Positions 874 through 41,130 of a stretch of 64,000 nt of DNA are shown one piece after another. A model generated the notes under the pieces. It did no database searches and had not been told where the DNA came from. It saw only the letters and a list, made by a program, of their open reading frames with translations. This DNA comes from Pontederia crassipes (taxonomy: Eukaryota; Streptophyta; Magnoliopsida; Commelinales; Pontederiaceae). The stretch covers positions 14,957,501-15,021,500 of the forward strand of contig CM060196.1 in the NCBI GenBank assembly GCA_030549335.1, given 5' to 3'. Both the position numbers and the translations under genes were made by a program. Position 1 is the stretch's first letter. Each line of letters begins with the position of its first letter.

Positions 874-3800
874 CCAACAACTCGTCCATATTGACCTTGA
901 CCGCCACTTTGCTTTTTGTGCAGATAATCAAATTCCGCACGTTGAGTCACAGTCTCACGAAAATTAACACGAGGTTTTCCAACCTTTGCATCAACCTGCA
1001 TATATAGATACAAATAAACCATAGTGAACATAAAATAAAGTTCTGATGTGTAAAACAAAATGACAAATTTATTTTTTGTTACTACAGCACCTCTTTTTTT
1101 TCTGAAGGAAGAGCACACTTTAGATGTTATTATTTTTTAGGGGAAATTTAGGTGTTATATTAATAGAGTTTTTTTTAGGGGTAGAAGGATAACTACATAG
1201 GCTAGCCAACTAAGGACACTTGAGAGATATGCAACAACAACAACAACAAAGCCTTATCCCACTAGGTGGAGTCGGCTACATGGATCATACGACGCCATTC
1301 CGCTCTATTAGTAACCAAACCTTTCGGTATATTATTCACCAATAGATCTTGCTCTATTAGTTCGATAATGAATATAAGAATTTTTTTTTATGATAATACA
1401 TATACAATCAAAAAGAAAAAATACAGAGATCAAGCAAAAAGCCACAGAAAATCCTCGATAATGAATCTGTTGTCGATGCATCATCACTTCCCTCTGAAAA
1501 TAGTGAGATTCTATTATTATAGAGTTCTTTCATTTACCTTGTATTCTCTTTTGATGCGCTCAACATAAATATCTAAATGAAGCTCTCCCATGCCAGAAAT
1601 AATTGTCTGCAAACAATATTGTCAAGTGTACTTAAAATATATCAAATCAAGGTACAGAATGAGTTTCAAGTGTGAACTACTGTTACCTGCCCACTCTCAG
1701 GATCCATCCCAACACGAAATGTTGGATCTTCTTTTTGGAAACGATTTAGTGCCTTTGAAAACTGACATAAAAAGGAATATTAAGGCAACTAAAGAAACAA
1801 GACCAAACAAAAAAAATGTTGTTGCAGAATTACTTGTCCGCCAGAATCCTTGGATACAGGTGAAACAGCCAAGGACATCACTGGTTCCGGAACATTCATA
1901 GAAGTCATAGTATACCTAACTGAACCATCAGTAAATGTATCACCTGGTGAAAGGGACATACAGACAATGAGTTCAAAGAAGAAAAGAGAACCGATGGTGA
2001 AAGAATAATGGAAACAGGTATTCAGAGCCAAACGGGAAAAGAAGCCAAGTAGCTTACCAGATGCACAATCAACGCCAAAAACGGCAACAATCTGCCCAGC
2101 GTGAGCCTGCTGAATATCCTGAGAATACAAACAAAATCATTGATCAGCTTTAAAGCTAATATTTCTTTTAAAATTTTATGCATAGCAGTAAGAGCCAGCA
2201 ACCGTAGCACTTTACACATGATAGGAGGCAGACTAACCTCCATTTCATCGGAATGCATCCGCACCAAACGTGGAACCTGCAACAAGAACAATTTACTTAA
2301 TTAGATTCTATTAGTAAGATTGTCATTTCCATTTTCAATTAACCATACAGATTTGAGAATGAGAAACTATTAAAATTGGCATTTTCGAATGTCTTCTTTG
2401 TTAAACTGAATTAGCCCTAAACTTCTACGAGAAAAGAAATATGGAATATTTCTAATTGCACAAAAGTCAGTACTTGTGACCAGCAAGCATAGGGTATGTT
2501 TTTCTAAGCAATTGACATTTCCAGGAAATAAATTAGAACGCTAATTCCTTTCAAGTGCTTGATCCCATGATAAAAAGTAGGGTTGACACAAGGGAAGACT
2601 CGGATTTGGAGAGCTGATCATTTCTCTGTCTGAACAGTTTATAAAACTCTGGATCTAGAGAGCTTCACCACAGATGAAGAGCTTAAAAGAGACAGTCGGC
2701 TCCTTTGGGGCATTAAAGTTCCTATGCGTATTCGGGTATTTGCATGGCTATTGAGGAGAAACAAGCTTCCTACTCAGAAGTACAGAATGAAATGGGCCAC
2801 AAGAATGAACACCGCTTGTGTCTTCTGCGATAACAACATGGAGGATATAGATCAACTTTTTTTCAACAGCCCAATAGCACGAAGGACATGGAAGGATTTT
2901 GGATGTGATTGGCTGGATGTGAGCTCTGTGATAGCATTCTGGCGATCATTTAGACAAGGCGGACATGGTAACAATTTACACGTATATGTATCAAAAAGAC
3001 AACGAATTAGAACAATTGCAGTTTTATGGGCGATATGGCGACAACGAAATGATTGCATTTTCAAGGGAGAAAAGTGTTATGTTGATAACATTCTAATAGC
3101 AGCTAGAAACTTGGCGTGTGAGTGGGCGAGATTATAAGATATGTTGTAATAGATACAAGTTTTTATAATGAATAAAAAATGGATGTGGGCACCTGGCTCA
3201 CATCCTTTATCTTCTCAAAAAAAAAGTAGGGTTGAAACAACTCAAACTTCCAAAAATTATCAACATAACAATTATCATGACTTGACAAAACACTTCTTAG
3301 GAAAAGGATTTGTCATTTCCTTGAGTAATAGAAATGGCTGCTTATTTAGAGGGGAAAGATGTTACACTGAAAATATTTTATCTACAGCGGCTAAGTTGAT
3401 GAAGGATTGGACAAATTTTTTTTTTCTATCCCTGTAAATTGTTTATGTACAGTGTGACTTTTTTAAAATAAAATTGGATGAATGCAATCCTTTATCCTCT
3501 CAAAAAAAAATGCGTAGAGGATAAAGATAGGGATATCCTGACCCACCTAAAAGAATACAGAAATTATACCTAACCAGATCAGTAACATTAAGATAGGGAT
3601 GAAAAGATATAATGATGATCATCTTATCCGGATCAATAGAACATTTTAAGTTTTTTTTTTTTAATTTAACATTTTAAGTTACTAATAGAGCGGAATGGCG
3701 TCGTATGATCCATGTAGCCGACCCCACCTAGTGGGATAAGGCTTTGTTGTTGTTGTTGTTGTAACATTTTAAGTTATTAAGATACAAGTTCGCCAAGCTG

Positions 3801-6800
3801 GATTTTTTACTAGAAGATACAAATTCTTGTTATTCAGATCTAAGTACACCCAAAGGTGTAGTCATCAGAATAGGTTTTATTTCTCGTGAAAAAAAAAAGA
3901 GTTGGTTTTATTGGCTTCAACATAGACATCAGAAGAAAATAAAAGAGACAGCTAGAAATGTAAAGAGTACTTTTTTAAAATGAATTAAGTCAAAAAAGTA
4001 CTTCAAGGAACGGAACAGGTTCAATAACTGAAGCATTAAGAGTACTTCAAGGTAAAGGTTCCATAAGTGAAGCATTAGTTATTCTTCCAAGAACAGAAAA
4101 CGATGCCGATGACCTAATAATATTTGTGGGTTGGAGTATCAATCCAAAAACTAAAACTTTGTTAATTTACTTGAATCATATAGCAAATATTCAGTCAAAG
4201 AAGATACATCAAGTTACTGTCAAAAATGGGAATAGGCACCAAGATTGTAATGGACCCTAGAGACCAAGATTTAAGAAGTTAAGATTGCTCATTAACAGGA
4301 TATTGTTTTTCTCAAGTGTATGGAAAATCTTACTTTAACCTTCTTCCCTGTGTTTGCATTAATTATGAAGTCACCTTTCCGAATAACACCTTCATATACT
4401 CTGTCAAAAGATAAGACAGAAAACTGTGAGTTGTTTCTCATAATCTGCCTCATTAAGATAATTAGAAACAAAAAATGAAACAGGTAGAATTAAATTGGTA
4501 TGACTCAGACCAGGAAATACCTTAAGTAAGTCAACTGACCAAAACGTCCTTCTTCCAGTTTGAAAGCTAAAGCAACGAGGGGTCCATCTGGATTTCCAGA
4601 TAACAAGACCTGAAAACACCAATCAAACAGAAAAAGGTTGGATTCCTTCAGAAAATAAACAATAAAAATTTCTGAACAAGTGTGGTCATGCAACTTTATT
4701 ATTCCCCCACGTGTGGCGTGAGTTGTATTGCTTCAATCATCTCATACCTGTGTGGATCAGCAAAGATTCTTCTAAGTCGCTGGCAATGAAGCAATACAAC
4801 TCATGCCACAACAACAACAACAACAACAGCAACAAAGCCTTATCCCACTAGGTGGGGTCGGCTACATGGATCATACGACGCCATTCCGCTCTATTAGTAA
4901 CCAAACCTTTCGGTATATTATTCACCAATAGATCTTGCTCTATTAGTTCGCCAAGTGTCCGCCTTGGTCTCCCTCTCCCTTTTTTAATCGGACTCCAGAT
5001 TATTTGATCTACTCTTCTTACTGGCACATCTAATGGTCTTCTCTGAACATGACCAAACCATCTCAAGCGATTCTCTACCATTTTCTCACTAATAGGAGCC
5101 ACTCCGACTCGTTCACGTATATGGTCATGCCACACATGGCTTTAATATTTCTGGATGACTACAACAACTTGGTAAACATCCTTTTCGTTCTCAGAAAAAC
5201 TTCTTTTCCCAAACAATAGGTGGATAATTGAAGTGAATATATACATCTATATTTCTTTTTTGAGAGGGACATACATCTATATATACATATATATTATAGT
5301 ACCTTCTCTTCAGATTTGTTTTGGTCAAGAGCATAGTTTTCGACTTCAATAGGACATGGCAAATAATTGATAACTCCATCCAGAAGAGGCTGTACCCCCT
5401 GTAAATATTAATTGGAAAAGGTCAACAATGCATATCATATATTGGCTGCATAATGAATGAGAAAATTTTCTCCCATCAAACAAAGAATTGACAAACAGAA
5501 ATTTCACAATATTAAGTGAGCAAGGTAAAATGAGGCCAAGTTTACATGGTGCATCTCTACCATATATGTTATAATCACAACTTATCCAGCCTAAAGTTTA
5601 AAAATGACAATTTCTTGAGAGGAATTTTTATGTTGAGAATTAAGATTAAAGATTAACTTAGGTGGCAACAATTATGAAAATATAATATTAAGGTGATGAC
5701 ATGTAGACATAATAGTATGCCAAATAATAATTAAGTTTATCATCACGAAAAAATTCTCTATTTTTATTTGGAGATCCGTGTAACACGATTTCCATATAAA
5801 GTCAAGGTTTTATGTCAGATATGTTGATTGGATCTGTTACAAAACTCCAGAACTTGAATAAAACAAACATTCCATGAACCATAGATTTCCTACATGCACA
5901 CTCTGAGATTATTCATGTCTCTGTCTTAGGATCATATTGCATGCACTTGGTTCATCTATTCATTATATTGATAATGGCTTGCAATCTCTCAGCAACTAAG
6001 CATTGCTGCATGCATTTCACATGCCTTACTCATTTAAGACATCAAGTGACTTGATTCCAGCTAGATTTTGGAGTTAGTAAGACAATGCCATCTGGAAATA
6101 CCGTAAATAGAATCATCCAATACTCCACATAGGTCAACATTTATTTCAAGATACATGTCAATATTATTAATGGAATTTCTGGATGACTACCTTCTTGCTA
6201 GTCATCCTTTCTCGTTTCAAAAAAAGATACATGTCTTTGTCAATGCAACATAGAATAACTCAAATTTTAAAAACAGCAGAGGAAAAAACATGCCCCAAAG
6301 ATAAGCCTGTTGTAAGAGAAATTATAAAATTATTTTAAAGGTTTGACTTTTTTTAGGAGATTTAAAGCTTTGACATGTTTAATCATCTTTTTCGCCTCTT
6401 AAAAAAATGGAACTTGAGCAACATAGCAGGTACCTTATTTTTGAATGCGCTCCCCATGTAAACTGGAACAAATTTGCGTGCTACTGTGGCCCTTCGAATT
6501 GCCATCTGGTCACAGGGATATCAACATAGTAAAAGAACAACAAAAGATTAAAAATCTTCCAAGAGTTATATACAAACACAGGTTGAGATAGCTAAATTTC
6601 AAAAGAAAAGGATTGTAGCTTTTCACAAGATTTTTCTTTGCATTTCAAGATTGATAATAGGGGCAAGGTGTACAACATTCTCCATATAATGCCTATCCCC
6701 AAAACGTTAACCGCCGCACTGAATCCATAACATTCTATAACAGATGCCAAAGAAAATGCAAGTTCATGCTATTACGAGGGTAAAGTTCTATGACAACCCT

Positions 6801-9800
6801 CCTGGCTATAGAATAAAATATTGCATCATCATAGGAAGAACCACATTGCATTAAAGAAAATTCTTCCACAGTTTTGCTGATTATCATACTTAAGGATATC
6901 TTAATTTTCACATTATTCACATTTGAGTCTCATGCATTCTTACGAATTCTCCAACAATATATGATTCAACACCAAATTAGTTGACACAGGGCAACCTGCA
7001 AAATAAGTGCTACTTTACATACAACAACAACAACAAAGCCTTATCCCACTAGGTGGGGTCGGCTACATGGATCATACGACGCCATTCGTTGATCCATGTT
7101 CATGAGATTCGACAGTCAACAGAGGTGCACCACGACAAAAAAATAAATTAATTTCAAGGTGGTAAGCATACAGTCAACAGAGGTGGACATATCAGGTGCA
7201 CATCTTTGGAGACTGTTTAAGGCGTCAACTGCACACAGAAGCCGTGGTTGGAGGCACTTGCTGAGGATAGCTTTGGCGGCCACATAGGCAATATGGCTGC
7301 AGCCAACCATACCACTCCCTCCCTCCCTCCCTCCCTCCCACACAGAAGCCATGGTTGGAGGCACTTGCTGAGGATAGCTTTGGCGGCCACATAGGGAATA
7401 TGGCTGCAGCCAACCATACCACTCCCTCCCTCCCTCCCTCCCTCCCTCTGAGGGCAACATTTCTCTTTTTGAGCAGTGAGTGCAGGATTGGAGAGTGTGA
7501 ACAGGTTCCATGCCCTCTCGAGTTTTTGAGTCGCTCTTCTTACTCACTTGTATATTTCATAGATTTCAATTTTCATAAAGGCAGCCTTGATGGCTACTCA
7601 ACCACAGTGGCCATCTTTTTCCTCTTCAAGAAAAAAAGAAATTTCAAGGTGACTCGGAAGCAATGTGACAGACATTCCAAGGTTTGGCGCATTAGAGACA
7701 GAGGTGGAGAGCGCCACTGGCGACTTTTTTGGCCGGTGCCCGGGCCATTTGGCTCCAGCGCAATCGGGTCATTTTTGTAGGGAAAGATGTCAGCCTCAAC
7801 ATATTTGTACACCATATATCCTTTCTTATTTGGGAGTGGATTTTTGGCTAACCGAGATACTTTTCATCTGTTTGCTGCTCTCTCTTTGAGAGCTTACACT
7901 TGTATGACAACCACAACTCTGGTGGTCATCCTTTTTCTACTAAAAAAAAGGATTCGGGCTATATGGATGCAGCGAAATGACACTCTTTTTCATGGTGGGC
8001 GTGCCTACGTTGACAACATCAGGAACCATGCGAAGGTCATTTTTGGAGATTGGAAAATGTGCTGATTTTTTGGGCTGCCATCCCTGTTTTTCTCTGCTTT
8101 TTGTTTGTAATCCAAATGCTGGGTTTCTCCAGACCCGTTTGTTTTATTCTTTTGTAATTTTTCCTAAAATTAATGAAACTCTGGATGACCACCACCTTGC
8201 TGGTTGTCCTCAAGGTCATTGATATATAATGTCACGTTTTAGGGATAGTAAGGAAGGATGCTGCAAGCAAGACCATTGATGTCCTTTATAATTCGAGGTC
8301 TTAAATAATTATTTTATCATATTTACTTAATGCATAGGCTCTTCGAGTTCATGATACAAGTTTTTTTTTTTTTGAGAAGAAAAAGGATGACTACCGAGTT
8401 TGGTTGTCATCCGGGTATATATATCACTGAAAGACATGTCATGTACATGAGGTACGCTCTCCATAGGAGAGCGGCAAAAGCAAGGGAGTACTAGTACTAG
8501 GTAAAACCCCACTCCCAAAGAAGACAAAAAATGTGATGTACAATATTATCCACCTGACACCCCTCGTCACAAAAAATAACTCGGTTGCGCTATAGCCAAA
8601 TGGCCCAGGCACCAGCCAAAAAGGTCGCCAATGTAACTCTCCAACACTGTCTCTGTCTGCCCAGTCCCCTCAAAATCTGTCAAAAATCCTCAAGTGCCAG
8701 AGATATAATATCAACAATGCTCGTCATGATACAAGTTAATGATTGGAGATTATAGAACATCAAATCAATTTTCATAATCTCTTGAACTTCACAGTCACAG
8801 TTGCCAAATAATTCAAGCACGCTATAGAATGATATGACTGTAAATGCATCAAAGCCGATGCAAGAACAAAGAAATTATGATCTCATAAACAAATGAAAAG
8901 GATACTGAAAACATTCTTATTTGCAGAGGAAGTGAGTGCATGAAAGATTACTGAGGAGTTTACTAATGCACTCCTCTCAAAAAAAGTTTAGGAATGCATT
9001 ATCCAAGTAAATCTACATTTAAAATTACAATAAATTTTGGCGTGCTTGATAAATGTGGCTTTGAAGTACTTGATAGGAAAAACCATCCAATTTTTTGTTT
9101 CAATTTAATTCATATCCCACACTTAATTGTGAACTTTGGAAGGCATTTTTAAAATATCAAATACAGGCAAACACAGCTCTGGCAGAGAAAGATGAGCATG
9201 AACAACATATTCATTCTAAAATTTCTAGCCATCATGGAAATGACATTCAAGTCAACTCTAATGTTTGACATATGACTATAAGCCTTAAAAGACTTTTTTT
9301 CTATTTTGAGAAGGTATACACTTGCGGATGCATGCGCTGCTGAGCTCCACACCCCGATTGGCTCTTTACCGATCACCAATTTGGGACTTCCTCTCTCGGA
9401 CCGACACATTGGTTCTCGAGGGTGGACACCTGTTGTGGAGAGACTGGAGCACAAGCTGCAGGGCTGGAGTTCGAGACTACTTTCACGTTGGGGCCGATTG
9501 GTTCTTCTTCGTTCGGTGCTATCTGCCCTACCGATATATTACATGTCAGTTCTTCAGATGCCTGGACAGATTTAGAGGCGGATTGACTCCTTACGGAGCA
9601 GGTTTTTTTGGCAGAGGAGCACCCCAGATCAACGCTCCATTCACCTTGTATCCTGGCAGACTATTTGCCGCCCCACCTCTTGGGGTGGCCTCGGTGTCCG
9701 CGACCTTCGGTTCACCAACTGGGCCCTCCTGGCTCGGTGGGTTGGGAGGATCATGGGACCCCGGAACAGCTTATGACGGGCAGTTTTCTTTACATGTTAT

Positions 9801-14360: not shown

Positions 14361-17300
14361 TTATATGCAGTTGTTATGTCTCTCTTTCCTTGTTATCGAC
14401 CTCCCCATTCGCAAGCGCCGAGCTGTTAGAGCTTCCAACAATGTATCTAACGAACTCTCGACTGCATCAGCTTGCTTATCCAACTCCAGATTGCTTAGAC
14501 TGTGGAAAGCATGAAGTTCTGAAAGAATGCTTGCAGCGGCAGCGGCTGTACAGGTCTTGTCCCATGATGGCTGGGGCCTATTATAAAAAGCTTCCAAAAG
14601 GTTCAGACGAGCACTTTGCAAAACATGAACATGTAACATGGATGTAATAATGCCTCAAACGCTCGACCAAAGAATCAGGTGCATACTTCTTACCGTAACT
14701 TGTGCATGACAGAAGCACCTAGGGTCGACAATGAAACACAAGGCAGGCCTTCCTCTATGAATGCTGATCTCCATCGTTCCTGATTAAGATATTCAAGCAT
14801 CTGAGTACACTAGTCAAACTGTCTATTGTATACAACATAGGGAACACATCTCTTAAAACAACAATCCGAAGGGAACAATGTGGCACAAAAACTCATAACA
14901 AGATGGCGGCCAAGATTGAAAGGCTGTTCTTTGATATCTAATAGAATGATGTGACTACATCTTTTGACAAAACATCCTTTTTTCACCCACAAAAAAGGAT
15001 TGAAAACTACATTTTAATGACCGTAATAACACATAACCCTGCGCTGCCTTTTTAATGCTGGTATACAGAAAATTTCTAGCATACACACTAAATTGCATAG
15101 TGGAATGTACATGACATGTCATGTGGTTTTCATTCATTGCATATGCATTTTCTTTTGAGGGGGTAGCATATGCATAGTTTAACTTGCAACTTTAATAACC
15201 ACAAATATTTAGATAAAAAAATGTTTTTGTGAATTCACTTGGAAATCTAAGGATGGCATTGCTTTGAAGTTTTCATGATGTAACAACCAACCATAGACAT
15301 CATCACGTAGAAGTCCCAGTGCAAACAGAGTTTTAAATGCATTGACACTACATTGTGAATAAGAACACAGCTGTTCACTGGATGACTACAAAACCTATTA
15401 GCCATCCTTCCCTTTCTCAGAAAAAAAAAGACATGTTTTCAGAACTGTGATCATCTCATTGAATATGATAGGGCTGTCGGAAGTTCTGATGTTGAACATG
15501 GATCAACGAAGTTTGAGAGCGGAATGGCGTCGTATGATTCATGTAGCCGACCCCACCTAGTGGGATAAGGCTTTGTTGTTGTTTGTTTGTTTGTTGTCGG
15601 AAGTTCTGATGTGTATTTATTTCAGGAAAAATAAATTGTGCCGATTGAACCCAACGAAAATTTAAAGCAATCTTCGACTTGCTGAAATCTATTTTCATCT
15701 CTCGATCATAGTGACCGAACCAAATAAGGATCATTGCAAGTATATTTTTAACTGGACAAAAGTTCTAGCTTCACAAGATAACTGGAAAAGTATTTTCTGT
15801 GTCAAAAGAATGTATCTCTCTCTAATGTTTTAGCACCTTAACCGCATTAATAAACTTATGGCAGATAAAAATGGATATGTTAAATACCTTCAAACGTCTG
15901 TACATTGCTGTTGAGTTACTCCAAGTACCGTCAATCATCACAAAGTTTAGAGGCTTGCACATATCCTGCTGTGTAGGTCAAGAATTTTAATTAAATTTCT
16001 CAAAAAATGAATTTAAATTAAATTTAAAAAACGGTTTCCTTATGAATAAGCTCTCTATATGGATGTTCTAACCCACTGATAACAATATGTCAAATTAGAA
16101 TCTGATTAGCTGAGAAGGGAACACATCTCAAGAAGTCAATGAAATACTGTTATAATTATTCTAGGATACAATGCCAATAACTAATTATTCTCTACATGCT
16201 ATCAAAGATAATGTCCCCAACCTTTTTTTTTTTTTTTGAGAAAGCCCAACTACTATTTTTTGTGCATTCCATTTTGAGATTTTTTTTCCCTTCCAAGGTT
16301 ATAGTATGTGAAAAGGCAGAGAGTAAAGACCATTTTCATGAGCATTCATATATTCTTCCATGCTGTCATTACTGCTGTTAAGATAGTGGAAACAAAGCTT
16401 TATAAGGACATCTAAGGAACATGTGGTGCAACGATCTGTTTTGGTATCACATATCTCAAGAAAATGATAAGTCATCTTGACGTTCACATAGATCTAAGCA
16501 TGGTTTATCCATCAGTAAGGAGGCATTACCAGCAGCATAAAGCTAGAGGCTGCAGAGAGGCCTATAGATAAGCATGGTTATCTTAGGGTCCCTTTGGCAG
16601 CAGTGTAATTGTGTAGCATTTTGGTGGTGCATGGTGTCCAATCCAGATAAGTCGGCTTGTGCAAGAATTATATGTATACGAAAGGTGATCATGCAACAAC
16701 AACAACAAAGCCTTATCCCACTAGGTGGGGTTGGCTACATGGATCATACGACGCCATTCGTTGATCCATGTTCATAAGATTCGACAGGGTTTTACGCTGG
16801 CTGTCGGGGCTTAACACAACCCTCCTCCTTTATCCGGGCTTGGGACCGGCTATAAAACATAGGCGGAGTTGAAAGGTGATCATGCAACAAGAGAATAAAT
16901 GGAAGTGGTGAAGAAATCATGCTTTAAGGCCTGGTTAGAAAGCTATTTAGGGGGCAAAAAGTGAGTGATTGGACGCCGGTGATGAGGGTGGAACAGCGGT
17001 TGACGGGATGTAGTTGCTACCCGAGGTGGCCGTCTCATATTGCTTCACCATGTCCTCTCGGCACTGCCAATTTATTTCATGACAGTTCTGAGAATTCCAA
17101 GGCAGGTGGAGCACTCAATCGACTTGCTGAGGATGTGCTTCTTCTTGCTGATGTTGTTTGTCACCCAACTGAGGAGGGTGGCCTTGGCGTTCTCAACCTT
17201 CATTGGATGAATACCGCCCTTGTCACAATGTGGGTAGTTCGAATAATGGGGAAGAAACGTGATCTGTAGTCCTCTATTTTCTATGCATGCTACGGTCACA

Positions 17301-20300
17301 TCCTGAACTGAGACTCGTGGTGATGAATGGGGCTTCCTCCTTTTGACGGGATTGTTGTGGAAATTCTTCCACAGGTTCGACAATTCTTCCAGTCCATTCT
17401 TGGCAGGGGATCCAACTTTTTTTTGGGGGGAGGGGGTGGGGGGGATAGCTGGTCGGGTGTGAATCCCCTTGCTTCGGATTTTCCTTGACTGTTTCAGTTG
17501 GCAGATAATAGAAATGTGACGGTGGCAGACTGATGGACTATTTCAAGCAATAGTGGAGGTGACACTTGGGTTCCGATTTTCTCAATGCTGCGGCGGATTT
17601 CCACCTATTCCCTACCACTGCCATGGAGGATGGTTGGAGGTGGAGATGTGATGCCTCTTTCTTTTTTGAGAAGGAAAAGGATGACCACCGGGTTATGTGG
17701 TTGTCATCTAGGTATATATACAACTATGGAAAAGGAAACATGTACAAGTGTGGGCTCTCAAAAAGAGAGCAAGCAAAAATGGAAAGTATATCAGCTATCC
17801 AATAATATGTTGTAACCTTCCTTACATCAATGGAACTTTGGACAACTACCATCTTGCTAGTCGTCCTTTCTCGTCTCAAAGAAAAAAAATGTTCTATTAT
17901 CTCACTAAGATAATACCATACAACAGTACTATTTAACTCAGATTAGAGTAAGGCCATATTAGTCAATAATTACCAAAATTATGGTAAGGATATTATAAAG
18001 ATATATTGAACCAATTTCAATCCAAAACCTTGAGGAATAATACTACAAAAGTTTTTCATGACTACACACAGTCGTCACCCACAGAATTAACTTTTCTTCT
18101 TTTACATTAACATTCTAAGGTATTGGAGTAAGCATAAAAGACAAGATATTGCTATGAATTTAATAAATAGGGCGGATACCCAAAAAACATTATAAAATTA
18201 GAGGTTAAAAAAAGGAATATACATCAATAGAGATGTATGAAATAAAGGGCACCTTTTGACCTTCAAGACCGTGAGACAAACTATTAGACACAATATCTGC
18301 AACTGTCTTAGGAGTTGAATTCATATTGGGATAGAGAAACCAAACTGTGTCCTTACCTGAAAGCAAGAAAGGATTCTCAGTCGAAAGCAGACGTAATTCT
18401 ATAACCTAAAACATGGTGTGTAGTCATAAAAGCAAATAGTTGCACTATGTAATAGTTGCTAATATCTGAATCACATGAATAATAGTTTGTTTTAGAAGAA
18501 TTTCAATAAGGCAAATGGAAGTAAAATTGGTGAAAGAGCTTTCATTTGGTATGAAAAAGTATTTTTCACTATCCCTAAACACAGCAACTCAACCTCGTGA
18601 CAGTAGAACTTTATGCAGTACAAAAATAAAAATAAGAATACTGACTAAACGAATCATGTAAAAGTTCAATACGACAATATGCATAAAAAAATCAGACTAC
18701 AAATATAAGTAGATGTAAACACCGATTTCTTAGTTTCTATTAAGAATATTGCACATGAGCTTTTAGGAAATTATGAATTTTAACCATGGTTTATCAAATA
18801 CTAATCAGGCACTCCTTAAAGAGGAATCTGGCACATAATTGGCTGTCTTATAAATCTTGGTTAAACTTGTTCAAAGCAATAAAGTGAGTTCCTAAGTTAA
18901 TTAATCCATAAAATAATAAATATAAAATTGAGAAATTTTTATCCAACGTATAACAAACAACAACAACAAAGCCTTATCCCACTAGGTGGGGTCGGCTACA
19001 TGGATAATACGACGCTCGTTGATCCATGTTCATAAGATTCGACAAGGTTTTACGCTGGCTGTCGGGGCCTAACACAACCCTCCTCCTTTATCCATGCATG
19101 TGCTTGTACATGGATATACATATGAAGCAGAAAAAACTAATATAAATTGAATTCATCTTATAAACATTAAAAGAAAATTAACAAACCATGCCGACTTGCA
19201 ACTAATGCGAACCAACAATTAGCCAAATGTATGCACCACTTGCGGTTCCCTCTTCTTTTTTTTTTTTTGAGAGGAGAGAGGATGACTAGCAAGGTGGTAG
19301 TCGTCCAGAGGTTTCATTGATGTAGTACGCGATTACAGTCGAACACTAAAAAACAAAAGATAGGTTGGTAGTTCCACCAATACACAAAATACTGTTACAT
19401 TACATATATTTCCTTCATTTCCCGTAGATTGCTCCTCTTTCTCATGTCAACCTCACACTTTCACCATAAGTTTTTGTGGTTCCTTTTCCTCCATCCACAT
19501 TTTTTAGCAGGGAAATATCCACCTAATTCAGATAGTAAACCCTCACTTTCCAACATTTATTTTGTAGACACAGACCAAGTTGACTGATTGTTGAATCACA
19601 TGTTCCAGAATGGTTTCCCCCAATTCCTTGGCAAACAAGTCTGGAGTTCGGCCAGATTAAAAAGGAAGCACCAAATGGGAAAACCACGTTCAATAAGCGA
19701 ACACAATCGAAAGTGTTTACCTGAATGCTTGAAAGCATTCCACATTATGTCTTCTTGTTCTTGGATACCAAAAAGACACATTATTGCATCTTGAGTACCA
19801 AATACTTGCCACAACAACTTTCCAGTGTTATTTTGTCGCAAAAAATCCTGAAGAAGAGAATGAATTTCATTTATTGAAGAAAAAAGAAGATAATAGAAAA
19901 AAAGAAATGAGCAAGCACACCTTTGGGTGCATATAGAGCCAAAATCTAACTCCATGCCACAATGGCCTTCGAACAATTTTAGAACACATGCAGTCTTCCA
20001 TTGGCAACCAACACTGAGAAAGATAACATCAAATGGTAAGATTTCTATATATATTTCCTCAAGAATTAGAAAACAATAATTTTAGGTAACAAAAGTTTTA
20101 ACTTCTCTAAATATGTATTTAATATGACACAAGAGATGACAAAAAGTTATCATATCCCCTGCATAACTAAGGGCATAAAAGAAATAACTAAGACAGAGAA
20201 AATAAGATGAGGGATTTCAGCGAGCAGAAAAACTATCAAGGCAGATTGTGAACATTCTCCACACGAGTAAAGAGCTAGAATTGTCCCTTTTGAGTATCCA

Positions 20301-23300
20301 GATTTTCTTTTAGGTAGATGACTATCCAGACTTTGGCTGAGTTTTTTTTTTTTTTTTTGAAACGGATTGGCTGAGATATTTTAGCACTTACCTTTTAGAT
20401 TATACATATGCAAGTATGTTTTGCCTTTACATTGGTACTTTGTGATTATGCATTTTGATGTACCAAAATGAGAATCTATGAAGAGTTGACCTAATACCTT
20501 TGATATTTTTGTTCTAAGGGATGCTTAAAGATAAAGAGGATAAAAGTATAATATTTTCAATGTTATAATTACCACATTTATCCAAAATAGTTATGGCAAT
20601 GTTTCTTTATTCTAAACACGAAATGAAGAGATTGATAATTTAAATGCCTCTTGTCCTAATGGAATTTTTTTAGGGTTCTCCTTATGTGAAATTAGTTTGA
20701 CGAGGATACAAAATCTCCCACATGTGTTTATAGTTTTTTTTAGGTAAACATGCGGCGGGACCGGCTTCTCACCAAGACATACAACGCGAAATGGGCACCT
20801 CACGCAGACACGTCTTGCATTTTGTGTGACAAGACAGAGAAGGACATTGACCATCTATTGTTTGCGTATCTGACAGCACGAGGTATTTGGCAGTGGACGA
20901 CCATTGTGGTGTCTATTTCCCTTGGATTCTCGGACCCTGTGGCGGTCTCTCAAAGTTTTTTTTTTTTTGAAACGGGGTCTCTCCGAGTTTTGATCCGATA
21001 GAGATAGAGAGCGTCACAGGCATCTTTTTAGGCCGTCTCCTGCGCCATATGGTTCCACGTAATAGGGTGATTTACATGATTTTTTGTAGGGAGTGATGTC
21101 AGCCAAAGCCTATTGTACACCACATCTTTTTTCTTCTTCGGGAGTGAGGTTTTGGATAGCTGATATACTTTTCTTTTTTTCGCTGCTTGTTCTTCAAGAG
21201 CTCACATTTATCACTCTCATTCCATAATTATATATATAACTAGATGACAATCACATAACCTGGTGGTCATCCTTTTTCTTCTAAAAAAAAGCATATGCCT
21301 ATAGTTTCATGAAATGAAAAGTGAGTCAAATTCGTTTCAAAAGAAAACAAAAGTAAGTCAAATATCAAATCAAACATTGAGAACAATCAAATTGATATCA
21401 AGTGCATTTTGAATTTTTTTTTTTAAACAATGATAAATCAATTTAAGAATGATGAAATTGAAGAGAGTTAAATGTTTTTTCCATTTGAACAAGGGAATAA
21501 AGATTGTGTGGGTCAAAAAGTGACTCATATATATGGATCACCGTTGGATCATGATCTGACAATTCATAAATAGGCATTTATTTGTAAACATTTTGATGAT
21601 TCAGATCACGATCCAATGGTGGCCCATATATATGGGTCAATTTTTGCCCCATGTAGTCCTTATCCCCTTCGAATAATGTCATCTTTTTCAATGACAGGTA
21701 TAGGCGAGTCAATGACGGCAACGAGACAAGGAGAACGATGAACAAACAATCTCAAACTTCATCGAGAATATGAAATCCACCAATAATGTCAATTTGCAAG
21801 TTACCTGCTATGATTTGATAAGAAAAATAATTGCTCCAAAATTCACCAAAGAGGCACTATGGAAGACACTAGAGTTCTTCAAAATAAATCGAATGCATCA
21901 TGAATCTAAACGATAGAGAAACACAAAGTTCAAATTGGGGGAAAGTAACGATCTCTATTAGTTTATTGATGCTATTTTAACTCTTATATAAAAGTTCTCC
22001 ATTAAGAGTTTGACTGCAATGAAAATTTTAAAATAACAAACAGATCAACATAAGATAAAAATAATAATAAAACAACTAGTATTCCTAACTACTAAAATTT
22101 TTAAACTCCGTCTATGTTTTATAGCCGGTCCCAAGCCCGGATAAAGGAAAAGGGTTGTGTTAGGCCCCGACAGCCAGCGTAAAACCTTGTCGAATCTCAT
22201 GAACATGGATCAACGAAGCGTCGTATGATCCATGTAGCCGACCCCACCTAGTGGGATAAGGCTTTGTTGTTGTTGTTGTTGTTGTTATAGGACTCTATGC
22301 TACATCACACTCTCATGTTGTAAAAAAATTCATCCTCAAATTTGGACGGTATGGGCCGGTGTAACTCGGTTGAGATTTATAGGCTCATGGTTTGGCATAT
22401 GTGATGCACATTTGCTTTTTCTCATTGACTAAAACCAAAGAGAGTGAATTTCATGAACGGTCATCAATTGTACTTTCGTTCTCAACTCAATCACCGAATT
22501 TTATTTTATAATTCAATGGTCATCAAACCTTGATAGTCTTGCAGTCATGGTCATGTTAATCGGTGATAGAAGGTTGACCAGTTACAATGTTGACGTGGCA
22601 CACATGCCAATATTTTCTTTCTTATCCACAGCATATTTAAAATTAATAAAAAATAAAAACATATTAAAGTAAAAAATGGACAACAATGTAAGTACTTTCT
22701 CTCTCCACCAAACCATATTTTTTAAATCTTATTAATTTTAAATATGATGTAGAGGATAGAAAAAATGCTAACATGGATGTCACATCAACATTGTAACCGG
22801 TAAATTCTATCTTCGGTTAGGATGATCATGGCCACAACATTATTAAAGTTGGATGACAAAGTAAAGTGCAGTGACCGAGTTGAGAACGAAGGTATAGTTG
22901 GATGACCGTTCGTGAAATGTACTTAGTTTGATACCACTGACAATATTTGTTTTAGGGGGGAAAGAATGATGACATTGTGGTAGGCATTCGCTTGTATTTA
23001 AAATGGAATGGATTTACTATGGTATGGCAGAAGCCTCTTGTACTTAGCTCAGGATGTACTTGATTGCTTAATAGACTAAAAAAAGATGGCTCATTTGTAG
23101 CAGCTGAGATTTTTCACCCACTCCAAATATGCAGAGTAATTTGGGTTAACTCCTCTCCCATCAGTAGCACTTCTGGGATTCGAACTTGAGATCTCTTAAA
23201 CCCACTTACCAGTTGAACCAAGCAACTTTTGATGCGAATGTACAAGTGTATGGGCATAATACGAGGATCATAGTTGCCCCAAAAATGAAAACATGATGTT

Positions 23301-26300
23301 ATCGAGAACCTCACTCTCGAAGCAAAAAATATGTGTGATGTATAATGGCCTCTACATAACACATTTCCTCTTTGCAAATTGTGTGATTTCACTGCAACAA
23401 AATCGCCCATATGGTGGCCATGGAAGCTAAACACTATTGTCGCCACCCCAATTCGTCATGCACAGCGCCTGTCCACAATGAGTCCTACAACTGTCTACTC
23501 CAGACATGTCAATGCATGTGAGTCCCAACTGGCGCCGTGTGTCCCTAGCCATAGGTCATGTGAAGAATAGATGCTTGATGTTATCATCTGCCAACCTGCA
23601 CAGTGTGCGCAAGGGAGTTGCGGAAGCTGACGTAGGAGGCATGAAGATGGCACTGAAACATGAAGTTCAATTACTGGAAATTATTCGTCTCCATTATTTC
23701 ATTGATGCCAATGTAACTTTCATAAAGAATTTAAATATAGAGTTTGACTCTATCTAAAAGGCTTAAACTATCAAACAAATCAACCTAAGACAAACTAAAA
23801 TGAAACAACTAATAATCCAATTACTAAGATTTTTCGGTCAAGGTCAAGAACCCACCAGTACTTACAACTACTAGTACCTAGCTACTCTAGTGATTGGATG
23901 GGAGTGAAATGGACATACGACCTAATTGAGAACTTCAGGAATGGGATCTTTAAACTTATGGGTCTCTATGCTACATCATGAATAAAAGATAAATTATAAA
24001 AAAAACTTGTAGTTGTCCAGAACTCGTAATGATCTCCCAGTGAGGCCTAGAGTCCTAGACAAAGATCTAGTTTTCCAAATTGAGAAGCCTTAAGCAATCA
24101 AATTCTGATTCATTTGATGAAGTGGTTGGATGGCCGCACGCTAATTCATTCAGTTTTCCTTCTGCTTAAATTAGACAAAACCAATGAAGTTTTTCAAGGG
24201 GTGTGTGAGATGTGTGTGAATCTAAGGCTGCAAAGTCACAAATTTGTTTGCCTGGCTTCCTTTTTAAACAGAAAAATGATGAAGTACTTAGTCTTAGTTG
24301 AAGATAATTAACATGCACAAACAATAACTCCCTCCACAAAAGTTCCTTAACCAAGACTGCAAAAAGATTAAATACTCCAGCTGTTTTATTTCTCTTAATG
24401 GCATAGAGAAATAGCATCTTCTGGAGAGCTTACGCATGTACATGTTGATCTTTTCATAGTGATATATATACTAGGATGACAAGTACAAACCTTGGTTGTC
24501 ATCCTTTTTCTCCCCAAAAAAAGATAGAGCAATAGCATTAATTAATAGTAACATTGTTGTATTTACCTCTCTGTGGACTTATTTGTTACATCCAGCTTTA
24601 TGAGCAACCTATTGGTTGGATGATTAACTGGAATGAAGCCAGATAGTGGGTCAATGGACCCTATATGCGAAAAACAATTTAGAAAGTTAAAATAAAAAAA
24701 CTCTGTTGTTATTAACCTCAAAGAAAATAACGATGCAGGAACATGGAAACCCTTTAATGATTTACACGAGTAGTTCCATCATTGAATCTTAATCCAATGA
24801 TCTGGGCCTTCTGAATGCAAAAGAATTTTTATCAGCATTTTGGCGGTGGGCTCATATGTGTAAAACCATCATTTCCCTATATACAAGAAAATATATATTG
24901 ATATTTTTTGCCAAATATATCTTTTGGAAATTAGTAAGAAATCAAAATATCTTTTTCACGAAGGGAATAACAATTTACTAATATCTACCATTTTTTCTTC
25001 CACTGCGAATTGTGATACTTTGATAAGCTCCATTTTAGTATACTTCAGGATGCTTTCAGAAACTAGAACGAAATAACAAGTAACCGAAGGGTCTACCAGC
25101 AGAGCCAAAGCTAAGGGCGTCAAGAGTTTACACCTTCTGGCAAAGGTATCCCCTGCTTCCAAGTAGGCGGCATGCTATTTGCCTAGCAGAGAAGAATTGC
25201 AGCTTCTGCTCGGAATCAGCTAGAGACTCGTAGACAGCTCTGTTTTTCTTATCTTCCTGAGTCTTGAAAGTACCCTAATGGGAAAAAGAACGGACAGAAG
25301 ACATAAAGACAAGCTCTGGTAACTATGGCAAATGTCCAAATTCTATATCATACAGCATTGTGGAAATGACACAAGATAGGAAAATTAGACAAGGATAAAA
25401 AGAACTGCAGTGTTTCATGCCCCAGCACAAATCAAAACATTATGAAAACACTAATTTTCAATATATCAAACTATAGTAAAGCAGTAGCATTGTTTCCAAG
25501 CATCTTTCAAATCCATTTCAATGTCAACAACAACAACAACAACAACAAAGCCTTATCCCACTAGGTGGGGTCGTCTACATTGATCATACGACGTCATTCC
25601 GCACAATATATTCGTTGATCCATGTTCATGAGATTCGACAGGGTTTTACGCTGGGGGCCTAACACAACCCTCCTCCTTTATCCGGGCTTGGGACCGACTA
25701 TAAAACATAGGCGGAGTTTAAAACATAGGCGGAGTTCTGTCAGTGTTCTATCATTGAAAGAATATCCATAAACAAGTACAATAGTTCAATTATTCTGCAA
25801 ACTGTATTTGTGCATATATCATAGCACTGCCACGAGAAAATGTAAATCACCAAGGAAACTGAGGCATGAACCAAGAGATTATTCCAACAAGATAGAACAT
25901 ATGAAAGAGATTCAAGTAATTTCATTGCATTCAGAAAATCCTATGAATAAGCATGCATGCATGCATGCGAAAGATAGTGTACATATCCCCCAAAAAAAGG
26001 AATGGAAAATATTCATCCACATACCTTTGGATGCTCCTCTAAAAATTGGGCCATCCTTAATGCAGTATTATTTTGTTTCTGTACACGAAGATGGAGAGTC
26101 TTCATGCTTCGAAGGAAATACGCGGTATTAGGATTCAGTAATAAATCCATTTCAATGTCAATCTGATTTATTATCTTCTACTATCCTCATAGTTTGTAAA
26201 ATTGGGACTAGCAATATCAGAAACTTAACGCAAGCTTGTGAATCAAATAAACGTGCCCATTCCACAAACAGATGACGCGCAATCCAACAAGAACGGGAGA

Positions 26301-26581
26301 CGAGGACAGTGAGCACGAAGGACGGAGCGAATCACCTGAAGTTTGGCACCGAGCCCGCCGAAGGTCATCTGGATGCCGGCGTCGCGCTCCAAGGCCTTCA
26401 ACGCGTCGATAACTTCCTTCACCACCGACGGGAACGGGGAGGAGGTGCCCCACGCTTGCCACTCCTGGAGGCTAACGACGCCCGCGCCGCCCTTCGGAAC
26501 GGCGGCCACGTCCTCGCCTACCACCGAGCCGCCGTTTCCTGCTTCTCCTTCATCCTCGAGCTTCGTGGTCGATGACGCCAT
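14361..26581 (-). CDS. DTW-domain protein, probable tRNA-uridine aminocarboxypropyltransferase
   Basis: Eight exons on the minus strand: 26581-26336, 25274-25134, 20013-19921, 19847-19721, 18356-18253, 15965-15888, 14779-14694, 14577-14361, all with GT-AG borders and matching phases, giving about 363 residues. It begins with the plant-specific leader (SLQEWQAWGTSSPFPSVVKE, then MTFGGLGAKLQ). The DTW-family cysteine cluster follows (YLCQKCW...EDCMCSK, split by intron 2). Next come RFWLYMHPK, FLRQNNTGKLLWQVFG, the name-giving motif IDGTWSNS, and KLRPQPSWD near the C-terminus. DTW/TDD proteins transfer the aminocarboxypropyl group of S-adenosylmethionine to tRNA uridine (acp3U); that activity is family knowledge, not visible here. 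The start at 26581 is chosen because the family-like part begins soon after it. In-frame ATGs at 26752 and 26803 would add a Ser/Arg-rich, transit-like stretch, so organelle targeting is possible. Introns 1-6 carry many retroelement ends and one captured foreign exon. Confidence 0.92.
15377..15431 (+). mobile_element. L1-type LINE tail-only fragment
   Basis: CTGGATGACTACAAAACCTA then TTAGCCATCC, TTCCCTTTCTC and an A tract; little else of the element is present. A target duplication was not found. Confidence 0.6.
15493..15594 (+). mobile_element. Au-like SINE/LINE end with TSD and altered tail
   Basis: A 102-bp copy flanked by the 18-bp repeat TGTCGGAAGTTCTGATGT (15475-15492, 15595-15612). 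The tail begins as TTG repeats and changes to TTTG repeats. It lies in the DTW gene intron between exons 6 and 7. Confidence 0.85.
16700..16870 (-). mobile_element. Au-like SINE, near full length, with 20-bp TSD
   Basis: The minus strand begins AACTCCGCCTATGTTTTATA and ends in (TTG)n. Identical 20-bp repeats (GAAAGGTGATCATGCAACAA) lie at 16680-16699 and 16871-16890. It shares its left end with the copies at 37183 and 22106, so CTCCGCC is probably close to the true 5' end of this subfamily. Clear pol III A and B boxes are not evident; GGTCCCAAGCCC only loosely resembles a B box. Confidence 0.88.
16930..17500 (+). mobile_element. degraded LINE reverse-transcriptase region
   Basis: Reads SDWTPVMRVEQRLTGC and later EEGGLGVLNLHWMNTALVTM, WVVRIMGKK, corresponding to the late RT region of L1-type ORF2 (compare [20 protein letters not shown] at 9323-10816). 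Frames are broken. It is inside the DTW gene. Confidence 0.7.
17663..17800 (-). mobile_element. L1-type LINE 3' end
   Basis: Minus-strand tail: T tract at the left, GGATGACCACCGGGTTATGT and GGTTGTCATC stem, then the GAGAGCCCACACTTGTAC motif found upstream of the stem in other copies. Confidence 0.68.
17815..17890 (+). mobile_element. L1-type LINE tail-only fragment
   Basis: ATGGAACTTTGGACAACTAC then CATCTTGCTAGTCGTCC, TTTCTCGTCTC and an A-rich tail. It faces the opposite-strand copy just upstream. Confidence 0.62.
18954..19094 (-). mobile_element. Au-like SINE fragment
   Basis: Minus-strand copy from GGATAAAGGAGGAGGGTTGT to the (TTG)n tail, with a small deletion in the GCGTCG region. It lies in a DTW-gene intron. 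No clear duplication was found. Confidence 0.75.
19254..19440 (-). mobile_element. L1-type LINE 3' end
   Basis: Minus-strand copy: T tract, GAGAGGAGAGAGGATGACTA then GCAAGGTGGTAGTCGTCC stem, and CATCAATGAAACCTC upstream of it, as in other members. The right (5') end is approximate. Confidence 0.66.
20741..21290 (+). mobile_element. L1-type LINE 3' end with zf-RVT remains
   Basis: Encodes MRRDRLLTKTYNAKWAPHAD then TSCILCDKTEKDIDHLLFAY (zf-RVT), broken by a T-rich insertion (TTTTTTTTTTTGAAACGG) at about 20957. It ends in ATGACAATCACATAACCTGG, TGGTCATCC and A's. Confidence 0.75.
21950..22310 (+). repeat. dispersed repeat copy (interrupted by a SINE)
   Basis: Similar to 23690-23985: both contain ATTGATGC...TAACT, GAGTTTGACT, AACAAATCAAC-like, AAACAACTA and CTCTATGCTACATCA in the same order. 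The source element is unknown. Confidence 0.55.
22106..22286 (+). mobile_element. Au-like SINE, near full length
   Basis: Starts CTCCGTCTATGTTTTATAGC and ends with eight or so TTG units. It interrupts another dispersed repeat whose uninterrupted relative is at about 23690-23985: the flanks TTTTTAAA and CTCTATGCTACATCA are adjacent there. Confidence 0.82.
22448..22917. mobile_element. long-TIR non-autonomous DNA transposon
   Basis: The ends are inverted copies of each other: left ATTTCATGAACGGTCATC... with TTCGTTCTCAACTC further in, right ...GAGTTGAGAACGAAGG and GATGACCGTTCGTGAAAT. Inner arms also pair (GTTGACGTGGCACACATG against CATGGATGTCACATCAAC). No coding capacity. No clear target duplication, so the superfamily is open (Mutator-like or hAT-like). 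Confidence 0.65.
23110..23610 (-). mobile_element. degraded LINE zf-RVT fragment
   Basis: The minus strand reads CRLADDNIKHLFFT, a stop, PMARDTRRQLGLTCIDMSGV, fitting the zf-RVT pattern (C..C...D.I.HLFF.CP.AR..W). Old and full of stops. Confidence 0.5.
23690..23985 (+). repeat. dispersed repeat copy (uninterrupted)
   Basis: Partner of 21950-22310. It shows the pre-insertion state of the site occupied by the SINE there. Not assigned to a known class. Confidence 0.5.
24418..24523 (+). mobile_element. 106-bp L1-tail insertion with TSD
   Basis: Contains GAGAGCTTACGCATGTAC, GGATGACAAGTACAAACCTT, GGTTGTCATCC and a poly(A). Flanks are ATAGAGAAATAGCAT at 24403-24417 and ATAGAGCAATAGCAT at 24524-24538 (one mismatch). 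DTW gene intron 2. Confidence 0.8.
24567..24660 (-). other. orphan exon-like segment in DTW intron 2
   Basis: The minus strand has GCATATAG|GGTCC..., an open 94-nt segment (SIDPLSGFIPVNHPTNRLLI then KLDVTNKSTE) and GAGAG|GTAAAT. The translation looks like natural protein, but I do not recognise it, and it cannot belong to the DTW protein because the Cys cluster must join across this intron. Its inclusion would shift the frame. Confidence 0.3.
25528..26142 (-). mobile_element. composite retro-insertion: captured host exon, intron and SINE tail
   Basis: A 615-bp insert in intron 1 of the DTW gene, bounded by identical 19-bp direct repeats at 25509-25527 and 26143-26161 (AAATCCATTTC, then AATGTCAA). 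Read on the minus strand it starts inside a cystathionine gamma-synthase exon (26142-26025), passes the exon's splice donor (GTATGTGG), runs through about 290 bp of intron-like DNA, and ends with an Au-like SINE (25737-25528) and its (TTG)n tail exactly at the repeat. Long direct repeats and a tail at one end are the marks of target-primed reverse transcription by a LINE. The host part is therefore a 5' transduction, or a prematurely ended pre-mRNA, using the SINE tail as the priming end. Confidence 0.85.
26025..26142 (-). pseudogene. cystathionine gamma-synthase exon fragment
   Basis: The minus strand reads LNPNTAYFLRSMKTLHLRVQ then KQNNTALRMAQFLEEHPK and meets a GT donor after the last Lys. 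It matches the PLP-enzyme block of plant cystathionine gamma-synthase (NP...Y...RGMKTL.LRVQQQN.TALRMA..LE.HPKV). One residue is missing in the Y(L)IIRG segment and Gly is replaced by Ser. It begins at the insertion border, so upstream exons were never copied. The close relative methionine gamma-lyase is an alternative source. It is a dead fragment in another gene's intron, though its donor might still be used. Confidence 0.82.

Positions 26582-33775: not shown

Positions 33776-41130
<7,355 letters not shown>

Follow-up and report, generated by a model that had tools for sequence, protein, structure and literature searches.

A fragment of a cystathionine gamma-synthase gene, probably joined to a short (TTG)n-tailed element by template switching, in a DTW intron of Pontederia crassipes

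Chimeric retroposons are documented in mammals and in a fungus. For human LINE-1, 17 chimeras with mRNAs or lncRNAs were reported, and 15 of the 17 source gene loci are without an intronic LINE-1 (PMC13174262). According to the passages of this report considered here, the RNA of a gene is fused to the 5' end of a LINE-family element within one target-site duplication. Mostly first exons and splice-donor junctions are involved, so that splicing between the RNAs (trans-splicing) is favoured. In Magnaporthe grisea the transcripts are fused directly and without microhomology at the switch, and in the passages concerned short direct repeats are given for the one tripartite case (PMC2104539). In most cases the partner is WEIRD, a single non-coding RNA, and the switch is made at a GCC motif within the LINE. 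In Arabidopsis, the Sadhu retroposons are plant elements with a poly(A) tail which carry short foreign stretches of 19 and 150 bp, for which the authors suggest template switching or transduction; the passages considered name no gene exon or splicing state (PMC2848041). TS SINE of tobacco, Bov-A2 and RTE1-N1_LA are described in excerpts of another study as short elements with a 3' end common to an RTE LINE, and TS SINE has a (TTG)n tail and a tRNA-related head (PMC3747384). In part of a maize survey, gene fragments in SINEs and LINEs are given as 'not determined' (PMC2774510). No plant RTE or SINE chimera with a gene pre-mRNA was found in the literature, which was searched mostly without subscription journals and partly in excerpts; the suggestion made for Sadhu comes nearest.

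Here we describe an insert in Pontederia crassipes that was found in a window of 64,000 nucleotides, the whole stretch of DNA that was analysed. It resembles the human chimeras in the apparent fusion of a gene RNA to the 5' end of a LINE-family element within one target-site duplication, and those of M. grisea in the direct fusion without microhomology and in the short direct repeats. In contrast to the human cases it contains an internal exon, a retained intron, a junction which is not a splice site and a short plant element with an RTE-type tail. Unlike in M. grisea, the switch would lie at the 5' end of the element and the partner would be a partly spliced gene RNA. The element is short, has a (TTG)n tail as TS SINE does and may likewise have its 3' end in common with an RTE LINE, but in the one copy scanned no A and B boxes in the right order were detected. 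The insert works like the known chimeras and differs from them in the presumed type of enzyme, the size of the element, the type of junction and the partly spliced partner.

The insert is a block of 615 bp (window 25528-26142) with its sense on the minus strand, located in intron 1 of the DTW gene (Table 1). The closest DTW protein among the best 120 of 387 matches listed is from Typha (68%). Perfect 19-bp direct repeats bracket the block, and its (TTG)7 tail, which ends at 25528, adjoins the repeat beginning at 25527. An empty site was identified in the paralogous DTW intron on contig C13 (L066), where one uninterrupted copy of the repeat is present (18/19 identical). When the window flanks were joined with one repeat, they matched L066 at 192 of 202 aligned positions. 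Because the empty site holds a single copy of the repeat, the block goes back to one insertion event, and since the target on C13 is uninterrupted, this event is probably younger than the C14/C13 duplication. A duplication around the whole insert, an empty site and a 3' tail repeat abutting the duplication are the marks of LINE-mediated (target-primed) insertion, and an RNA-mediated single insertion is secure. The size of the insert, its repeats, the position of the tail and the LINE-type insertion, all of which had been proposed in an earlier note on this DNA, were thus found again.

Table 1. Features of the insert and its host gene in the window, and candidate chimeric copies of the element at other loci.
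Feature	Position	Strand	Extension	Duplication	Basis or remark
DTW exon 2; insert between exons 1 and 2	25134..25274	-			tblastn
Target-site duplication, tail-side copy	25509..25527	.			identical 19-bp repeat; single copy at empty paralogous site
Short (TTG)n-tailed element, 5' end complete	25528..25736	-			repeat copies in window and genome
CGS intron, retained over its first 288 nt (of 301), with donor GTATGT	25737..26024	-			CGS gene comparison
Next CGS exon, whole, with 3-nt deletion; joined to upstream exon, 205-nt intron removed	26025..26129	-			
Last 9 nt of upstream CGS exon	26130..26138	-			same 9 nt precede GTAAG donor in both CGS genes
4 nt ATTA, match to neither CGS exon nor target	26139..26142	-			sequence comparison
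Target-site duplication, CGS-side copy	26143..26161	.			identical 19-bp repeat; single copy at empty paralogous site
DTW exon 1 (host gene)	26336..26581	-			tblastn
Candidate L026	89-164	minus	76 bp	22 bp	first 6 of duplication possibly tail
Candidate L049	1383-2503		1121 bp	21 bp	
Candidate L049	269-1035		767 bp	14 bp	weaker case
Candidate L050	3406-4198		793 bp	14 bp	weaker case
Candidate L051	2333-2505		173 bp	15 bp	weaker case
Candidate L055	4637-4747		111 bp	18 bp	
Candidate L059			453 bp	14 bp	weaker case

Several further observations were made at this locus. Within 14364-26581 of the window, the introns of the DTW gene contain a minimum of four additional copies of the element family, which lie in both orientations. 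Both DTW and CGS (L009/L010) are paired on C14 and C13, the CGS genes being 6.1% and the DTW genes about 9% apart, which suggests a large duplication or polyploidy. At 7232-7446 of the window, a 107-bp unit occurs in two tandem copies with 98% identity. An Rfam scan of the window gave no match at the gathering threshold, and two pattern scans of viral contigs gave 0 matches each.

Cystathionine gamma-synthase (CGS) is encoded by a gene of the methionine pathway. On the minus strand, the 615-bp block begins with LNPNTAYFLRSMKTLHLRVQKQNNTALRMAQFLEEHPK, of which the first 4 nt are either filler or decayed sequence. The exon peptide, with the query cut at HP, matched tobacco cystathionine gamma-synthase with an E value of 6.9e-12, and among the 44 CGS proteins found the exon fragment reached at best 34 of 38 identical residues, in eight monocot proteins. 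In a genome search with the whole insert (best 40 of 2317 candidates scored), the CGS part was located elsewhere at C14:1753069-1753464 and C13:51780290-51780657. Both matches fall within CGS genes, the exons of which cover nearly the whole protein. The C14 gene is the closest to the insert, with 8 differences at 401 sites, 6 of them assigned to the insert and 2 to the gene; the C13 gene differs at 27 of 390 sites, and the two genes differ from each other at 24 of 394 sites. The CGS exon of the insert has lost 3 nt, and two residues are changed that are invariant in all 44 proteins. As expected, these changes fit a dead copy.

Comparison with the CGS genes also revealed the splicing state of the insert. 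The order of exon, donor GTATGT, intron and tail had been read correctly before, and the roughly 290 bp of intron-like DNA are true CGS intron, which breaks 13 nt short of the 3' splice site. What had been missed is the end of the upstream exon, CTGAATCCT, which is already spliced on. Because the 205-nt intron between the two exons was removed exactly while the following intron was retained, the template of the CGS half was an RNA, spliced at one intron and unspliced at the next. The exact loss of the 205-nt intron rules out copying of this part at the DNA level. The pre-mRNA proposed in the earlier note stands with regard to the unspliced intron and has to be amended for the upstream one, which was already spliced out. 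The insert places a splice donor in sense orientation into DTW intron 1, without the CGS acceptor. To call this exon shuffling was an overstatement: the second exon, although complete, has lost its acceptor.

The 209 nt at the other end of the insert belong to a repeat that occurs 13 more times in the window. In 9 of the 14 window copies, the insert counted, a duplication adjoins the (TTG)n tail, and among these nine only the insert has the other repeat hundreds of bases upstream. The element shows a doubled 18-bp unit at its 5' end (25701-25736) and the (TTG)7 tail at 25528-25548. It is complete at its 5' end, since L005 and L006 have the doubled unit as well. A genome search for the family yielded 2739 first-look candidates, of which 40 were scored; these share 98-100% identity with the query copy, and each of the 40 reaches the 5' end of the query at AACTCC. 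The element family is large and young. Compared with 70 other copies, 2 substitutions and one 6-nt deletion are private to the element half of the insert, and the longer CGS half has 6 private substitutions and one 3-nt deletion, in keeping with similar loads of private change in both halves.

An Au-like SINE had been assumed for this part. Au SINEs end in poly(T) according to passages of two studies (PMC3747384, PMC2774510), and the identity with Au is ruled out by the (TTG)7 tail and the wrong order of the boxes. In the scan of one element copy, a B-like match with 2 mismatches was detected at position 24 and the only A-like match at 144, the reverse of the order in a tRNA. Three window copies (1232-1303, 3690-3762 and 4815-4889) extend into the end of a LINE reading frame before the same tail; this was read by eye and is clear in 1232-1303 and 4815-4889. 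The 3' end and the (TTG)n tail of the element are thus common to the LINE reading-frame end in the window, and the LINE was tentatively read as RTE by eye and by a tail rule given in a passage of PMC3747384. The element looks RTE-derived in its sequence. Its 5' module presumably derives from the 5' end of the LINE itself. Where the 5' module (...GGATCAACGA) meets the 3' module of LINE origin (GCGTCGTATG...), the seam differs in length and letters between the copies (572-744, 7021-7115, 15493-15583, 16694-16874, 18956-19093, 22099-22284, 25528-25736, 37181-37359 and 38145-38261), as if separate internal jumps had made these copies or the seam were unstable.

At the border between the two halves, the CGS gene reads ACTGACAG|CAG and the element begins with AACTCC. 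There is no shared base and no splice donor. A homology-guided switch and trans-splicing do not fit such a junction, and a blunt jump made once the 5' end of the first RNA was reached would fit it best. Trans-splicing was rejected at this place, where the gene reads GACAG|CAG without a donor. The border is also not the end of the intron, which lies 13 nt further on, and a separate insertion of the element was dismissed, no duplication having been found around the element alone.

For a wider view of the family, 77 distinct copies including the insert were surveyed; duplicates and copies too near to the locus ends were left out. A repeat of at least 10 bp ending at most 45 bp upstream of the element start is present in 42 of them, and nine have a repeat of at least 14 bp farther upstream which is set at the tail. 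The remaining 26 show neither class within 1450 bp, so that the survey is incomplete; some of these may be old and some may have longer extensions. One of the nine copies with a far duplication is the insert, one (L005) is an ordinary truncated LINE, and there are seven others (Table 1). Judged by these repeats, 7 of the 76 other sampled copies look chimeric. As a control, tails were paired with the upstream flanks of other loci. Here, 4 of 5784 pairs matched, and therefore about 0.05 matches are expected among 77. Two of these four pairs matched over 24 and 23 nt, which means that the length of a duplication alone is no proof. A further copy, L037 (minus strand, about 1420-1745), has a 61-bp duplication with one mismatch, compared with the usual 13-24 bp, and contains a 20-nt filler resembling part of the target.

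Identified gene exons are present in three of the eight candidates, the insert included: CGS, CCT theta and GWT1. The extension at L049:269-1035 contains a CCT theta exon (E 1.9e-12) in the same sense as the element. A second clear CCT exon was not found in the 5.2-kb L049 locus with human CCT8 as query. At L050:3406-4198, two exons of GWT1 coding sequence, again in the sense of the element, have kept the intron between them, and their joined peptide matches PF06423 with an E value of 3.6e-17. By its sequence, the L055 extension resembles the end of an exon with 10 nt of intron behind it. No Pfam family was found for three of five extension peptides (L055, L051 and L059). The L059 extension is repetitive, with 45 match rows from the best 40 of 388 candidates scored. 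It is the one of the seven other candidates for which source relatives were examined, and all three copies fetched (L062-L064) continue without the element at the junction; L062 has an unrelated element copy elsewhere. Capture of gene fragments by the short (TTG)n element family seems to be recurrent. In L026 (minus strand 165) and L049 (1036), the foreign part is joined at the same internal position 24 of the element, GGTCCCAAG, which is also the place of the only B-box-like match. This position is a possible second start or switch point.

How the two halves came together is best explained by chimeric retroposition with template switching, which we consider the probable mechanism. An RTE-type LINE enzyme would have nicked DTW intron 1, primed synthesis at the (UUG)n tail of an RNA from a short element and copied this RNA as far as its 5' end. 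Without base overlap, it would then have jumped to nascent CGS RNA, 13 nt short of the 3' end of the intron. Copying would have run back through the unspliced intron, the exon and 9 nt past the spliced junction before it stopped, leaving a 5' truncation, and the second strand would have been made last. Parts from different transcripts, a CGS RNA and the element, are fused within one duplication, and their source loci are separate in the one assembly, as judged from 9.9 kb around both CGS genes found. The element is absent from the intron concerned and from the 9.9 kb around either gene (2/2 found; best 40 of 2317 candidates). These element-free genes, the perfect duplication, the empty site, the exact loss of one intron beside the retention of the next, the blunt junction and the private changes all speak for template switching, as do the other far-duplication copies, the relatives of L059 without the element and the published LINE chimeras. 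Against it stand the use of one assembly, the duplications of just 14-15 bp in four of the seven other candidates, the control matches of 24 and 23 nt, the incomplete survey, and the fact that retention of the intron would already follow if an element lay 13 nt before the splice site. This last point leads to the rather unlikely alternative of 5' transduction, in which a lost or unsampled CGS allele carried the element near the 3' splice site and a transcript spliced upstream was copied from the tail. It agrees with the complete 5' end of the element and with the finding that, of the two introns, it is the one at the junction and not the upstream one that stayed unspliced, and passages of the human LINE-1 report keep a lost allele open for MAP3K13 (PMC13174262). 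The earlier note had preferred a SINE-tail-mediated form of it, with a CGS gene carrying a SINE in its intron as source. However, both CGS genes found have the same intron without the element, neither carries it downstream of the transduced part, the three L059 relatives fetched are likewise without it, and a separate loss would be required for every such case. The same note had set a CGS intron without a SINE against a single event; such an intron makes simple 5' transduction less likely and favours a jump from one RNA to another, and the single event, with its one duplication and its empty site, stands.

Two other routes were weighed. In the first, ligation might have linked a cut CGS pre-mRNA to the element RNA at the latter's 5' end, and the product would have been copied in one run. 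The blunt junction, exactly at the element 5' end and without shared bases, would suit this very improbable course of events, which leaves the same sequence trace as a jump. DNA elements are known from passages of PMC8277862 to capture gene fragments in plants, and a CGS fragment could have been moved by a DNA mechanism, with the element inserted beside it later, in two or more steps. This is scarcely credible: precise removal of an intron requires RNA, a single duplication surrounds the entire insert while none was found around the element alone, the paralogous site is empty, and the private changes are similar in both halves. The DNA-level route is already refuted by the exact splice junction and the empty site together.

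The insert preserves a record of splicing, with one intron removed and its neighbour kept, and can be seen as the fossil of an encounter between a nascent transcript and a LINE reverse transcriptase. This suggests that the two met in the nucleus. It is conceivable, though somewhat doubtful, that the RTE machinery behind this large, young element family routinely jumps from the element 5' end to nascent, partly spliced transcripts and so spreads sense gene fragments, perhaps hundreds of them genome-wide. If true, this would be an RNA-based counterpart of Pack-MULE capture in plants. If the rate of 7 in 76 applied across the genome, the little-studied short retroposons of plants would contribute considerably to the shuffling of gene fragments.
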